The notes below the pieces were generated by a model that worked only from the letters and a program-made list of their open reading frames with translations, had not been told where the DNA came from and made no database searches. A stretch of 64,000 bases of DNA from NCBI GenBank assembly GCA_025463055.1, contig JAOAPV010000118.1, forward strand, positions 1-64,000, given 5' to 3'. This DNA comes from Candidatus Acidiferrum typicum. GTDB taxonomy: Bacteria; Acidobacteriota; Terriglobia; Acidiferrales; UBA7541. Positions within the stretch are counted from its first letter, which is position 1, and each line of letters starts with the position of its first letter. The position numbers and the translations under genes were made by a program. Below are positions 1,092-6,333 of the stretch, one piece after another.

Positions 1092-1221
1092 CGCTTGGAT
1101 GCTCTAGTGTACTCCGCTGGATGGGTGAAATCGGCTCGAAAGCTGAAAGTGTGGGCATGGAACATGACCACTACATGTAGACATAGGTACCAAAACGTCA
1201 ACGATATTTAGCGTTTTCCTC

Positions 1222-1250
1222 TTGACAGGAATTTGACAGAAGTTGATACT
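1222..1250 (+). promoter_or_regulatory. Sigma-70-type promoter for the nrdJ leader
   Basis: TTGACA (1222-1227) and GATACT (1245-1250) are separated by 17 bases, giving predicted transcription from about 1257, some 375 bases before nrdJ. A second TTGACA sits at 1233-1238. The -10 has four of six consensus bases and the same xATACT form as the promoters of ruvA and the radical SAM gene in this window. Confidence 0.5.
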
Positions 1251-1632: not shown

Positions 1633-4455
1633 ATGGCTACAGTGAAGTCCGCACTACACAGCAAATCAATGGAGACGGCAACGCGCACAGACCAGGCCAA
1701 TGCAGGAAAGGGACTGGTGTTCGAACGCCGTTTCACCGATGGAAAGACCTCCGCGTTCGACATGGTGGAGTGGGAGAAGCGCACTGCGCTGATCGGAAAC
1801 GAAAAGGGAGCGACTATCTTCCGTCAGGAAGGCGTCGAGGTCCCGAAGAATTGGTCGCAAACCGCGACGAACATTGTCACCAGCAAGTATTTCCACGGCA
1901 AGCCGGGCACCAGCGAGCGGGAGAATTCGGTGCGGCAGCTCATCAGCCGCGTGGCCAATACCATTGTGCGCTGGGGCGAAGAGGGCGGCTACTTTGCAGA
2001 CGCGGAATCTCGCGACGCTTTCCGCGACGAACTGACGCACTTGCTCGTCGAGCAGAAGATGGCCTTCAATTCCCCGGTGTGGTTCAACGTCGGCGTGCAG
2101 CCCAAGCCGCAATGCTCGGCCTGCTTCATCAATTCCGTGCAAGACAATATGGAATCGATCATGGGGCTGACGCGCACGGAAGGCATGTTGTTCAAGTGGG
2201 GCTCCGGCACGGGCACGAATTTTTCGACTTTGCGCGGCAGCAAGGAAACCCTCTCGGGCGGCGGCATTGCGTCCGGTCCGGTGAGCTTCATGAAGGGCTT
2301 CGACGCATTCGCCGGCGTCATCAAGAGCGGCGGGAAAACGCGGCGCGCGGCCAAGATGGTGATCCTGAACATCGATCATCCGGACATCGTCGAATTTATC
2401 GAATGCAAGATGAAGGAAGAGCGCAAGGCGCACGTGCTGATCGGGCAGGGCTACGACTCCGGCATCGACGGCGATGCGTATAGCTCGATTTTCTTCCAGA
2501 ACGCGAATCACTCCGTGCGCGTGACCGACGACTTTATGCGCGCCGCGGAAGAAGACCGCGATTGGTGGACTCGGAACATCACGGACGGCCAGCCGAACGA
2601 GAAACTACGCGCACGGGACTTGCTCGCGAAGGTTGCGGATTCCACTTGGCACTGCGGCGACCCGGGCATGCAGTACGACACCACGGTAAATCGCTGGCAC
2701 ACTTGCAAGAACACGGCGCGCATTAACGCTTCGAATCCCTGCAGCGAGTACATGTTCCTGGACGACACTGCCTGCAACCTGGCTTCGCTAAATTTGATGA
2801 AGTATCGGACTTCGAACGGTCAATTTGATGTCGAAGGGTTCAGGCACGCCGTAGACGTCACCATTACGGCGCAGGAAATCCTGGTCGATAACGCAAGCTA
2901 TCCCACACCGAAAATTGCCGACAATTCGCACGCGTACCGGCCGCTTGGCCTTGGTTATGCGAATTTGGGCGCGCTGCTGATGTCGATGGCCTTGCCCTAC
3001 GATTCTGATGAGGGCCGCGACGTTGCGGGCGCGATTACCGCGATGATGTGCGGCGAAGCGTATGCGCAGTCGTCGCGTATTGCGGAGCGCATGGGCCCAT
3101 TCCCCGGCTATGAGGTGAACCGCGAGCCGATGCTGGACGTGATCCGCATGCATCGCGATGCCATGCGCGGGATTCAGCCGGACCATGTGCTGCCGGAACT
3201 ATTTCTCGCCGCGCAGGAGTCTTGGGACACCGCGCTGCAGCACGGCGAAAAATTCGGCTACAAGAATTCACAGGTCACGGTGCTCGCGCCCACTGGAACC
3301 ATCGGCTTCATGATGGACTGCGACACCACCGGAATCGAGCCGGATCTGGCTCTGGTGAAGCACAAGAAACTCGTCGGCGGCGGGTTGATCAAAATCGTGA
3401 ACAACACCGTGCCGGAAGCGCTGATGAAGCTGGGCTACACACCGGAACAGTCTAGCGAAATCGTTTCGCACATCGACAAGCAAGGAACCGTGGAAGGCGC
3501 CCCGCACTTGAAGCCCGAGCATCTTCCGGTGTTCGACTGCTCCCTGGCACCAGCCGGCGGCGGCAGGTCCATCAGTTGGACCGGTCACGTCAAAATGATG
3601 GCGGCTGCGCAGCCTTTCCTATCCGGCGCAATCTCAAAGACCATCAACATGCCTGAGGAATCGACGATTGACGATATTTCGCAGGCTTACCTTCTTTCCT
3701 GGAAGATGGGACTAAAGGCCGTCGCGATTTACCGCGACAATTCGAAACGCTCGCAGCCTCTTTCTGCCGCGGGCAAGAAAGACGAGAAGACAGCGGAACC
3801 TACCGCAGCGGCCGCGGCCTCGATGCTCGAGCCATTGCAGCGAGAACTGTTTGGACGGCAGCAGCGCGAGAAAATGCCGGTCGAGCGTGCTTCCGTGACC
3901 CACAAATTCAGTGTCGGTGGACACGAAGGCTACATCACGGCCGGTATGTACGAGGACGGGCGCCCCGGCGAAATCTTCATCAAGATGTCCAAGGAAGGCT
4001 CTACGCTCTCGGGCATCATGGACGGCCTGGCGCTGACCATTTCGCTTGGATTGCAGTACGGCGTGCCGCTGAAAGTGTTCGTCGACAAGTTGCTGAACAC
4101 GCGCTTCGAACCTTCCGGCATCACCGCGAATCCGAATATTCGTTTTGTGTCGTCAGTGCTCGACTACATTGCGCGCTGGCTCGGCGGACGCTTCATCTCT
4201 TCTGATTATTTGAAGCTGAATGGCGAGCAGGCGGCTGTGGCGCACGCGCATGCACCTGCGCCACCGGCGGCAGCTCCGGTGTCGGCGATGACCGAGGCGA
4301 TGCGCTTGGCGCCGCCGCTCACCACTCCGCAATCCTCCAAACCTCGCGATCAGCATGAGGGCGCACCTACGTGCTCCGAATGCGGCATGCTGATGGTGCC
4401 GAACGGCGCTTGCTACAAATGCGAGAACTGCGGCAGCACCTCCGGTTGCAGTTAA
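1633..4455 (+). CDS. nrdJ: Adenosylcobalamin-dependent (class II) ribonucleoside-diphosphate reductase
   Basis: This 940-residue enzyme reduces ribonucleotides to deoxyribonucleotides using a thiyl radical generated from adenosylcobalamin, so it needs B12 but no oxygen-dependent NrdB subunit. The ten-stranded barrel core is recognisable from PQCSACFINSV (Cys161/Cys164), the NPCSE motif with Cys370 as likely radical cysteine, and TACNLASLNL with Cys381 as the second member of the redox pair. APTGTIGFMMDCDTTGIEP is another family signature. The last 25 residues form a zinc ribbon (CSECGML...CYKCENCG), and the extreme C-terminal cysteines probably re-reduce the active site. An Ala/Pro-rich linker (about 865-910) joins core and tail. 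GGAGGG five bases upstream fixes the ATG. There is no ATP-cone at the N-terminus. It is probably the main RNR of the cell. Confidence 0.95.
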   Translation: MATVKSALHSKSMETATRTDQANAGKGLVFERRFTDGKTSAFDMVEWEKRTALIGNEKGATIFRQEGVEVPKNWSQTATNIVTSKYFHGKPGTSERENSVRQLISRVANTIVRWGEEGGYFADAESRDAFRDELTHLLVEQKMAFNSPVWFNVGVQPKPQCSACFINSVQDNMESIMGLTRTEGMLFKWGSGTGTNFSTLRGSKETLSGGGIASGPVSFMKGFDAFAGVIKSGGKTRRAAKMVILNIDHPDIVEFIECKMKEERKAHVLIGQGYDSGIDGDAYSSIFFQNANHSVRVTDDFMRAAEEDRDWWTRNITDGQPNEKLRARDLLAKVADSTWHCGDPGMQYDTTVNRWHTCKNTARINASNPCSEYMFLDDTACNLASLNLMKYRTSNGQFDVEGFRHAVDVTITAQEILVDNASYPTPKIADNSHAYRPLGLGYANLGALLMSMALPYDSDEGRDVAGAITAMMCGEAYAQSSRIAERMGPFPGYEVNREPMLDVIRMHRDAMRGIQPDHVLPELFLAAQESWDTALQHGEKFGYKNSQVTVLAPTGTIGFMMDCDTTGIEPDLALVKHKKLVGGGLIKIVNNTVPEALMKLGYTPEQSSEIVSHIDKQGTVEGAPHLKPEHLPVFDCSLAPAGGGRSISWTGHVKMMAAAQPFLSGAISKTINMPEESTIDDISQAYLLSWKMGLKAVAIYRDNSKRSQPLSAAGKKDEKTAEPTAAAAASMLEPLQRELFGRQQREKMPVERASVTHKFSVGGHEGYITAGMYEDGRPGEIFIKMSKEGSTLSGIMDGLALTISLGLQYGVPLKVFVDKLLNTRFEPSGITANPNIRFVSSVLDYIARWLGGRFISSDYLKLNGEQAAVAHAHAPAPPAAAPVSAMTEAMRLAPPLTTPQSSKPRDQHEGAPTCSECGMLMVPNGACYKCENCGSTSGCS

Positions 4456-4559: not shown

Positions 4560-4904
4560 ATGAGTGCTATGCGAACCGGTTCGGCACTTGCCGCTGCAAA
4601 CGTTGCTCCGCCAAAACCAAAAACGCATGGCTTTTTGCGAATCGCCCGCCACGGTACCGGGCCCGGCGCCATGTACGTAGTCACATATCACCGGCTCGAT
4701 CAAATCGAAGGCTCGCATCCGCGTCCTGTGGCGGCGGAAAGTGCGCAGGCGCTGATCGAATTGATGGAGCGCATTGGCGTGGACTTCCGGCTTCGCGAAG
4801 TGCGCGGCGCCCTCGAAGATGTCCTCCGATTCGGCTCCGCGAATATCCCGGACCTCTGGCTCAGCGATGAAGAAATGATCGAGAAGGGGCTCGTCGAGAG
4901 CTAA
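4560..4904 (+). CDS. Hypothetical protein downstream of nrdJ
   Basis: A soluble 114-residue protein I do not recognise. Residues 1-40 are basic and Ala/Pro-rich, followed by a compact-looking segment (FLRIARHGTGPGAMYVVTYHRLDQIEG) and an acidic helical C-terminal half ending in a WLSDEEMIEKGL motif. There is no signal peptide, membrane segment or Cys cluster. It follows nrdJ by 104 bp on the same strand and precedes a good terminator, so it may be the last gene of the nrdJ transcript. A GGAGGGG stretch lies about 10 bases before the ATG; a second in-frame ATG follows three codons later. A role linked to the reductase is possible only by position. Confidence 0.55.
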   Translation: MSAMRTGSALAAANVAPPKPKTHGFLRIARHGTGPGAMYVVTYHRLDQIEGSHPRPVAAESAQALIELMERIGVDFRLREVRGALEDVLRFGSANIPDLWLSDEEMIEKGLVES

Positions 4905-4972: not shown

Positions 4973-5194
4973 TTAGCGGGGACGGGGGCGTAGCGGTGGG
5001 CGCGCCGTTAGCGGGCGGGGGCGCATGCGGAAGCGCGGGCCTAGCGGCGGGGGGACGTTGCGCAGGGAATCGCCGCAGCAGGGGCAGCGGCCTTCATCAC
5101 AGAACGCCCGGGTAGCATCGGCGCGCAGCCAATGGCCTCGGGCTTCGCACTGCGGATTGATGCATTGCACGGTGAAGCCGGGCAGAAATTGCAT
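4973..5194 (-). CDS. Small zinc-ribbon protein
   Basis: A 73-residue protein whose N-terminal half has Cys pairs typical of a structural zinc site: C-INPQ-C (about 11-16), then AFCDEGRCPCCGDSL (about 31-45). The C-terminal third is a very basic Arg/Pro tail (PRFRMRPRPL...RPRPR), which suggests nucleic-acid or membrane-surface contact. The ATG at 5194 is preferred over an in-frame GTG at 5209 because GAGGGA lies 6-9 bases before the ATG and overlaps that GTG. It converges on the nrdJ terminator and diverges from the SPFH gene across the palindrome at 5321. Function unknown; a small regulator or ribosome-associated protein are possibilities. Confidence 0.55.
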   Translation of the reverse strand: MQFLPGFTVQCINPQCEARGHWLRADATRAFCDEGRCPCCGDSLRNVPPPLGPRFRMRPRPLTARPPLRPRPR

Positions 5195-5320
5195 TTCGTT
5201 TTCCCTCACGGCCGTGACGCCTCTTGCGGCGGCGGCCCGTAGCGAGACCCGAATTCCCCTGTTACGGACGGATGTTGGCGCGGATTCTGGCGCACGCTGA
5301 CTCCGCTGTCAAGAGGAAAT

Positions 5321-5338
5321 ACCACAATATATTGTGGT
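5321..5338. promoter_or_regulatory. 18-bp perfect palindrome resembling an NrdR box
   Basis: ACCACAATATATTGTGGT is its own reverse complement over all 18 bases. Its core CACAATATATTGTG matches the known NrdR-box pattern (acaCwAtATaTwGtgt as I recall it), the site of the repressor of ribonucleotide reductase genes. Only one copy is visible here, although NrdR usually binds paired boxes. It lies between the divergent zinc-ribbon and SPFH genes, not before nrdJ. Confidence 0.5.
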
Positions 5339-5469
5339 TGGGTTGCAGGCGGCAGTTGGCACATTCGCTGCCAACCAATCTCGAAAGAACGAAACGCCAG
5401 TGCTCGTAGTAGATGATAGAGGCGGTGCGCGCGGCATCAGCTGGCAGAGGCCGCGTGAGGAGGCAGTCA

Positions 5470-6333
5470 ATGGCGAATGTCACGGGCGGCAGGTCGATCG
5501 ACTTAGGCGGCTCTATGCCGTCAATGCCGAATTTTCGGCTCGCAGGGTCGCGCCTGCTTAAAATTGGGCTCGCGATTTTGATCCTGCTGCTGTTGCTTTG
5601 GAGCACGACCTCGATTCCGACAGGTAACGTCGGCGTGCTCACACTCTTTGGACGCGTGACCGGCGAGACGCTGCCGGAAGGCATCCACCTGATCAATCCT
5701 CTGAAATCGGTGCAAAAACTTTCGGTGCAAACGCAGTCGCTCAAAGAAAGCGCCAACGTCCCTTCCAACGAAGGCCTGATCTTGGCTTTGGACACGTCTT
5801 TACTGTTCCGTTTGGACAAGAGCAAGGCTGCGTACGTCTATCAAACTATGGGAGAGCCGTACGTCGAGAGGGTGGTGGAACCGACACTACGTGCGGCAAT
5901 TCGCGCTGCAACTTCGGCGCACACGGCGAATGCGCTGTACACCAACGCCCGCGAACTGGTGCAAGCGCAAATCCAGGATGAGCTGACCAAGGAACTCGCT
6001 CCACGCGGTGTAATCGTTGAAAACGTGCTGCTGCGTGACGTGCAACTGCCCGCGATGTTGAAAGGCTCGATTGAGGCCAAGCAGCAGGCGGAGCAGGACG
6101 CGCTGCGCATGAGCTTCATCCTGCAGAAAGAAAAACAGGAAGCAGAGCGCAAGCGCATCGAGGCTCAAGGTATTGCGGATTTCCAGAAGATCGTCGCGCA
6201 AGGCATCAGCCCGCAGCTTCTCGAATGGAAAGGTATCGAAGCCACGGAAAAACTGGCGACGAGCTCGAACGCGAAAGTGGTGATAATTGGCAATCCCAAA
6301 AACGGATTGCCGCTCGTGCTGGAGCCGAGGTAG
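5470..6333 (+). CDS. SPFH/band-7 (prohibitin-like) membrane protein
   Basis: A 287-residue stomatin/prohibitin/HflC-type protein. Near residues 30-48 there is one strong membrane segment (IGLAILILLLLLWSTTSI), followed by the SPFH domain (VGVLTLFGRVTGETLPEGIHLINPL...) and a charged coiled-coil region rich in Glu/Lys/Gln (IEAKQQAEQDALRMSFILQKEKQEAERKR, in part). Such proteins form large rings in the membrane that organise lipid domains or hold proteases such as FtsH. The ATG at 5470 has GAGGAGG six bases upstream; an in-frame ATG at 5413 lacks a site. It is probably monocistronic, since the next gene converges with only 6 bp between stops. The exact role is not predictable. Confidence 0.85.
   Translation: MANVTGGRSIDLGGSMPSMPNFRLAGSRLLKIGLAILILLLLLWSTTSIPTGNVGVLTLFGRVTGETLPEGIHLINPLKSVQKLSVQTQSLKESANVPSNEGLILALDTSLLFRLDKSKAAYVYQTMGEPYVERVVEPTLRAAIRAATSAHTANALYTNARELVQAQIQDELTKELAPRGVIVENVLLRDVQLPAMLKGSIEAKQQAEQDALRMSFILQKEKQEAERKRIEAQGIADFQKIVAQGISPQLLEWKGIEATEKLATSSNAKVVIIGNPKNGLPLVLEPR

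Follow-up and report, generated by a model that had tools for sequence, protein, structure and literature searches.

The 18-bp palindrome upstream of a small zinc-ribbon gene, here called zr, is probably an NrdR box that controls the zr promoter, and zr would be regulated together with nrdJ, the nearby gene of the class II ribonucleotide reductase (RNR). NrdR is a bacterial switch for genes making DNA building blocks. The type of the box, its fixed place 7-9 bp before the zr -35 element, the box pair of nrdJ and the linkage of zr to nrdJ are established by the sequences compared. Since NrdR-type boxes stand at both zr and nrdJ, the two genes probably make up a small regulon of NrdR in this lineage of Acidobacteriota. 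Within the window, by which the whole analysed stretch of 64,000 nucleotides is meant, the palindrome is perfect over its 18 bp (5321-5338) and is flanked on the left by zr (minus strand) and on the right by an SPFH/Band 7 gene (plus strand), as had been noticed in an earlier sequence-only reading; it begins 866 bp past the final base of nrdJ (4455), close to the 870 bp or so given there.

Table. Features of the window that bear on the palindrome and its neighbouring promoters.
Feature	Position	Strand	Remarks
NrdR box 1 of nrdJ, ACCACTACATGTAGACAT, core CTACATGTAG at 1171-1180	1167-1184	+	
NrdR box 2 of nrdJ, TCAACGATATTTAGCGTT, core CGATATTTAG at 1202-1211	1198-1215	+	31 bp centre to centre from box 1
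nrdJ promoter, TTGACA 1222-1227, 17-bp spacer, GATACT 1245-1250	1222-1250	+	
nrdJ, class II (B12-dependent) ribonucleotide reductase	1633-4455	+	
zr, zinc-ribbon protein, 73 aa, CX4C ... CX2C, basic Pro/Arg tail	4973-5194	-	no Pfam/NCBIfam family
zr promoter, -10 element CAGAAT	5284-5289	-	17-bp spacer from -35
zr promoter, -35 element TTGACA	5307-5312	-	8 bp from box; TTGAC 7-9 bp past box in 35/35 loci
NrdR-box-type palindrome ACCACAATATATTGTGGT	5321-5338	.	single recognisable box, zr promoter
SPFH/Band 7 gene	5413-6333	+	other side of palindrome; judged not the target

Taken on its own, the palindrome is no more than chance would give. The base composition of the window leads one to expect 0.31 perfect 18-bp palindromes, and a match comparable to the palindrome was present in 5 of 100 shuffles of the window. 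A pattern search with ACWCWATATATWGWGT at up to two mismatches found one place in the 5.33-Mb genome, the palindrome itself, as against two for the reversed control pattern. As the palindrome is not rare by itself, its significance rests on conservation.

The zr promoter, TTGACA-N17-CAGAAT, reads leftwards into zr, and the palindrome stands 8 bp upstream of its TTGACA. A box before TTGAC was found in all 35 zr loci, the distance being 7, 8 and 9 bp in 2, 20 and 13 of them, respectively, with the reservation that each box was chosen as the highest-scoring site with TTGAC after it, so that position had a share in defining the weakest ones. Farther than about 10 bp upstream of the box, the sequence showed no conservation (n = 35). 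That the palindrome is a product of chance or a transcription terminator is scarcely credible: the expectation of 0.31 per window would allow the former, and a scanner flags the palindrome as terminator-like on the minus strand, but in every one of the loci the box keeps its spacing, and a terminator of zr would have no meaning where it stands, ahead of a conserved promoter.

The SPFH gene adjoins zr divergently in 24 of the 35 loci, with the palindrome upstream of it, and there is also, on the plus strand, a weak promoter-like match overlapping the palindrome; both would suit an operator of the plus-strand gene. Eleven loci gave no SPFH match; four of these have too little flanking sequence, and the box is present in 7/7 of those with about 1.5 kb of flank. 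Because the box is kept without SPFH and stands at a set distance from the zr promoter, it belongs with zr and not with SPFH; the SPFH gene was dropped as the target, and an SPFH operator is very improbable. The suggestion that the neighbouring genes belong to the NrdR regulon holds very probably for zr, with its box in 35/35 loci, and was given up for SPFH.

The start of zr was placed at the ATG at 5194, which has GAGGG ahead of it; this codon is ATG in 34 of the 35 loci, the window counted, and TTG in one. The gene was found in 35 of 61 genomes examined, namely in 34 of 36 of the same genus (window included) and in one of a sister genus. A sample of the phylum, 396 genomes, gave a strong zr match solely in the window's own genome; the five weak matches among the other 395 were taken as chance. 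Judged from its codons, zr is under purifying selection (median pN/pS 0.18; 120 pairs from 16 of the 35 sequences). It shares a contig with nrdJ in 30 of the 32 genomes having both, at a distance of 3.4-7.6 kb. The search of zr against Pfam and NCBIfam gave no family match, and the target is thus not an RNR gene by annotation; in this zr departs from what is expected of a target in the NrdR regulon, the nearby nrdJ being an RNR gene. The AlphaFold model of the protein had a mean pLDDT of 69.6 and a pTM of 0.46. The best Foldseek hit of its structure had an E of 0.95, and its sequence found no match in the PDB at E up to 1; with no informative match from either, no function follows. Directly 3' of nrdJ there is also an ORF of 114 aa (4560-4904), present in 24 of the 35 zr stretches (relatives and window), which had no Pfam match and an NCBIfam match far below threshold.

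The comparison of the promoters showed that nrdJ carries boxes of its own. The sequence-only reading had seen no site before nrdJ and had described the palindrome as located away from the reductase gene. A pair of boxes is present there, and since nrdJ has its own, the palindrome is not a site displaced from it. The pair fits the published NrdR-pair expression with a spacer of 21 in the counting of PMC12051234, which is a common class; any such pair occurs in 8 of 254 overlapping 500-bp tiles of the window, the tiles over nrdJ among them. The check that had been proposed, a search of the genome for recurrence of the motif, came out favourably in so far as the box type stands before nrdJ, in diverged form, but the near-exact pattern search missed the nrdJ boxes.

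Among the same-genus nrdJ promoters first fetched, a pair fitting the strict expression precedes TTGAC in 21 of 30, one of the other nine being without upstream sequence, and TTGAC..GATACT is found in 27 of 30 nrdJ upstream regions. Only 2 of 21 nrdJ/RNR promoters beyond the first 30, of which 19 are from outside the genus, fit the strict pair expression, and the two of the same genus (G005, G010) are both without it. In the class beyond the genus, 15 of 16 NrdR-positive genomes have a best phased nrdJ pair that no more than one of 100 shuffles reached, a more distant RNR being used in place of nrdJ in two genomes (G049, G057); the exception was G054, with 6 of 100 shuffles. G050 and G058 are among the genomes in which one member carries nearly the whole phased-pair score.

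The relation between the zr box and the nrdJ boxes was examined with matrices built from one promoter type and applied to the other. Regions of up to about 400 bp were scored with a matrix from nrdJ alone (42 boxes), and in 32 of 35 the zr box was the top match. Many of the scores are modest: only 10 of the 35 zr boxes have one that is reached by at most 5 of 100 shuffles, and in two loci (L093, L101) the score lies below all 100. Conversely, a matrix from zr alone ranked nrdJ box 1 first in 21 of 21 promoters, and box 2 anywhere from second to fiftieth. In the window, scored with a matrix from both promoter types, the zr palindrome reaches 26.6 against 17.4 and 12.5 for the nrdJ boxes; the averages under the nrdJ-only matrix are 12.2 for zr boxes against 14.9 and 12.6 for nrdJ boxes, so zr is not higher. 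Copies of the palindrome with at most two mismatches are present in 17 of the 61 genomes; 11 have theirs at zr, one (G050) before nrdJ and five at places with neither gene. The window palindrome has the core expression C.[AT].A[AT].[AT].G of the published NrdR-box motif, and 23 of the 35 zr boxes fit the published single-box expression (PMC12051234, section 4.6), which bears out its earlier description as NrdR-box-like. The half-sites of the zr box matched in 214 of 315 pairs, compared with a column-shuffle mean of 216.5; the variation is not symmetric, which counts against the NrdR reading, and half-site covariation gave no evidence for the palindrome.

The number of boxes is where zr and nrdJ part. 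A second box at phased offsets was found by matrix in none of the 35 zr loci, with the off-phase control also at 0 and the profile covering -60 to +60, and by the published expression in one of the 35. The same phased matrix test was positive in 21/21 nrdJ promoters, these having been chosen beforehand for having pairs. By the definition of a two-box operator (integer turns, spacer 14-17 or 24-27 bp) the nrdJ promoter of the window is one and the zr promoter is not. With second boxes at that level, zr is not filed as a canonical NrdR operator. The available text of PMC12051234 (section 2.7) gives a fall in the affinity of E. coli NrdR of 530- to 1000-fold once either box is mutated; NrdR being said to need two boxes, the single box counts against NrdR control of zr.

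Family f11 has a layout of its nrdJ promoters close to that of zr: 17 of the 18 evaluable ones have a strong box 6-7 bp before TTGAC, and NrdR is encoded in 20 of 20 genomes; in this sample of 20, L264 has no box, the match in L265 stops short of the gene start and one genome gave no nrdJ match. The best phased second site was at +30 or +31 in 13 of 17, with low scores (-3.3 to 6.2). Judging by this nrdJ layout, NrdR may use in this class an arrangement in which a strong box stands close to -35 and the second position holds little. The resemblance to zr lies in the one strong box near TTGAC; family f11 differs in that the target is nrdJ itself and in the faint second site.

It might also be supposed that the zr operator is a canonical NrdR pair after all, with a much-decayed second box inside the promoter spacer, ACCACAG-N5-CGCGGC, about 31-32 bp downstream of the palindrome. 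ACCACAG, which starts on the last base of TTGACA, shows conservation at zr and is three helical turns off the palindrome, and the faint sites at +30/+31 in family f11 would be of the same kind. Against this, the matrix signal at +31 has a z of only 0.7, no locus passes the threshold, as in the off-phase control, the zr spacer shows no greater conservation than the nrdJ spacer (mean information 0.87 vs 0.89) and no clear symmetry, and the window itself is without ACCACAG. A hidden pair is therefore considered unlikely, and the reading of a lone recognisable NrdR box at zr is retained.

The association of the motif with RNR genes was examined by a scan that was blind to the downstream gene. The pattern CCACWATATMTWGTRG followed by 6-12 bases and TTGACA was searched in one genome per species, 84,980 species in all, a set that may omit records close to the window's own genome. 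It was found in 104 stretches at 105 sites, which were sorted by similarity clusters, Pfam scans (10 representatives and 26 cluster members) and a zr search. The site was followed by an RNR catalytic gene in 48 cases, by an nrdG-like gene in 5, by zr in 13, all of these from Acidobacteria records, by a Rhizobiales histidine kinase in 9 and by another ORF or none in 30. From the RNR cluster 31 different members were Pfam-scanned in all, and the 26 cluster members scanned gave NRDD in 17, the class II N-terminal domain in 7, the barrel domain in 6 and the ATP-cone in 19. The term nrdG-like is our label for five radical-SAM genes of which one was Pfam-scanned, and one of the nine in the histidine-kinase group was likewise scanned. 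A phased second box by the published expression accompanied 19 of the 48 RNR sites (off-phase control 3/48), 4 of the 5 nrdG-like sites (control 0), 1 of the 13 zr sites (control 1) and 9 of the remaining 30 (control 4).

Two smaller groups in the scan are recorded here as side observations. The Rhizobiales records L147, L149, L151, L153, L192, L194, L196, L209 and L236 have a box-like palindrome and TTGACA before related ORFs, the one scanned being a PAS/histidine kinase. In L149, inspected by eye, a GC-rich hairpin has TTGACA in its loop and T-rich sequence after it, so that TTGACA may belong to a terminator rather than a promoter. In L160, L202 and L210 (Thermodesulfobacteriota, Syntrophales, Desulfobacteraceae) a common CCACAATATMTTGTGG box lies 10 bp before TTGACA with related ORFs downstream; the one scanned matched PilZ (E 6.5e-06), a possible further non-RNR target.

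The genus encodes NrdR: a TIGR00244 match was obtained in 33 of 36 same-genus genomes. D15 and R17 of the zinc ribbon, which the accessible text of PMC9110341 names as giving DNA specificity to NrdR of S. coelicolor, are present in the four same-genus NrdR translations read, the window's genome not being among them. In that genome (G000) nrdR was found neither with TIGR00244 nor with a same-genus NrdR query (best E 0.64). The gene just upstream of nrdR in relatives, for a conserved protein of about 364 aa, had no match in G000 by a query that was without a positive control, and the downstream neighbour of nrdR in one relative gave matches of 37% identity or less. The assembly comprises 146 contigs and is 98.9% complete. 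An assembly gap or the loss of the whole locus would each explain the absence, and as the usual upstream neighbour of nrdR was not found either, a gap is possible. An nrdJ pair in spite of no nrdR match was seen in G059 (92% complete), G040 (75%), G026 and G000, the pair of G059 being near the ribosome site with no TTGAC; G052 has neither nrdR match nor nrdJ pair. The three nrdR-negative genomes outside the genus were thus mixed (none in G052; a pair in G059 and G040), and the co-occurrence of NrdR and boxes was dropped as support. Autoregulation of nrdR was looked for in 30 nrdR loci (22 oriented right, 8 wrong), where the best upstream score was 13 of 18.

The failure to find nrdR in the window's genome, together with the single box and the non-RNR target, could be read as the mark of another regulator that binds a site like an NrdR box. 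This is improbable in view of the motif, which is the same as that of the nrdJ boxes and lies at a similar distance from -35, and of the 84,980-species scan, in which RNR genes are the largest class of matches.

If NrdR is indeed the regulator of zr, then at high dATP the protein loaded with dATP/ATP would bind the box beside the zr -35 element, and transcription of zr would shift in step with that of nrdJ, most likely by repression. The zr promoter has a lone recognisable box that is a perfect palindrome, as against the diverged pair of nrdJ, so that NrdR may act there as a single-site complex, possibly a less cooperative one. It is tempting to speculate, though we hold it only tentatively, that NrdR works in this lineage from a single near-ideal box upstream of the -35 element, on a non-reductase gene that has kept its linkage to nrdJ, perhaps activating it or responding at a dATP threshold different from that of nrdJ. 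Were this true, class II deoxynucleotide synthesis would have in zr an accessory that has gone unrecognised.

In its palindromic core the zr box is the same as the NrdR boxes of RNR operons (S. coelicolor nrdRJ, E. coli nrdHIEF, the nrd operons of Listeria and Streptococcus). As in those, a sigma-70-type promoter adjoins it and NrdR is encoded in the genus, and nrdJ of the window has the usual pair; unlike those, there is one recognisable box, and zr does not encode a reductase. A non-RNR gene with a lone NrdR box in front of it is also described in the text at hand of PMC4409342, namely P. aeruginosa topA, the expression of which was lower in an nrdR mutant; mutation of its one box gave similar levels. 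Single-box control of topA is doubted in the parts of PMC12051234 at hand. The two cases differ in that topA is a topoisomerase gene reported to be activated, whereas zr encodes a zinc-ribbon protein, is restricted to a lineage and lies near nrdJ, its box being present in 35 genomes. The accessible portions of PMC12176259 and PMC5343134 held nothing further on single NrdR boxes, a literature search on the NrdR box with topA and single gave nothing beyond PMC12051234 and PMC4409342, and one on NrdR with Acidobacteria had as its sole match a paper on Staphylococcus aureus regulators. A lone box at fixed spacing in 35 genomes, near a two-box nrdJ, offers a natural test of single-site NrdR action, and zr, an unannotated protein family, is a candidate partner of class II ribonucleotide reduction.

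The leader of nrdJ deserves a separate remark. It is about 380 nt long (1245-1633 in the window), and its first part is conserved, with a mean column identity of 70% over 201 nt in 27 same-genus sequences. A hairpin is predicted within this part, at alignment columns 48-53/74-79. In five of its six pairs both bases have changed in one or more of the sequences; the total covariation term is small, at -0.78. Comparison with Rfam gave no family at the gathering score and six at E up to 1, these being microRNA and frameshift models below their cut-offs. On the strength of its conservation and predicted fold, the nrdJ leader is put forward as a candidate structured RNA leader.
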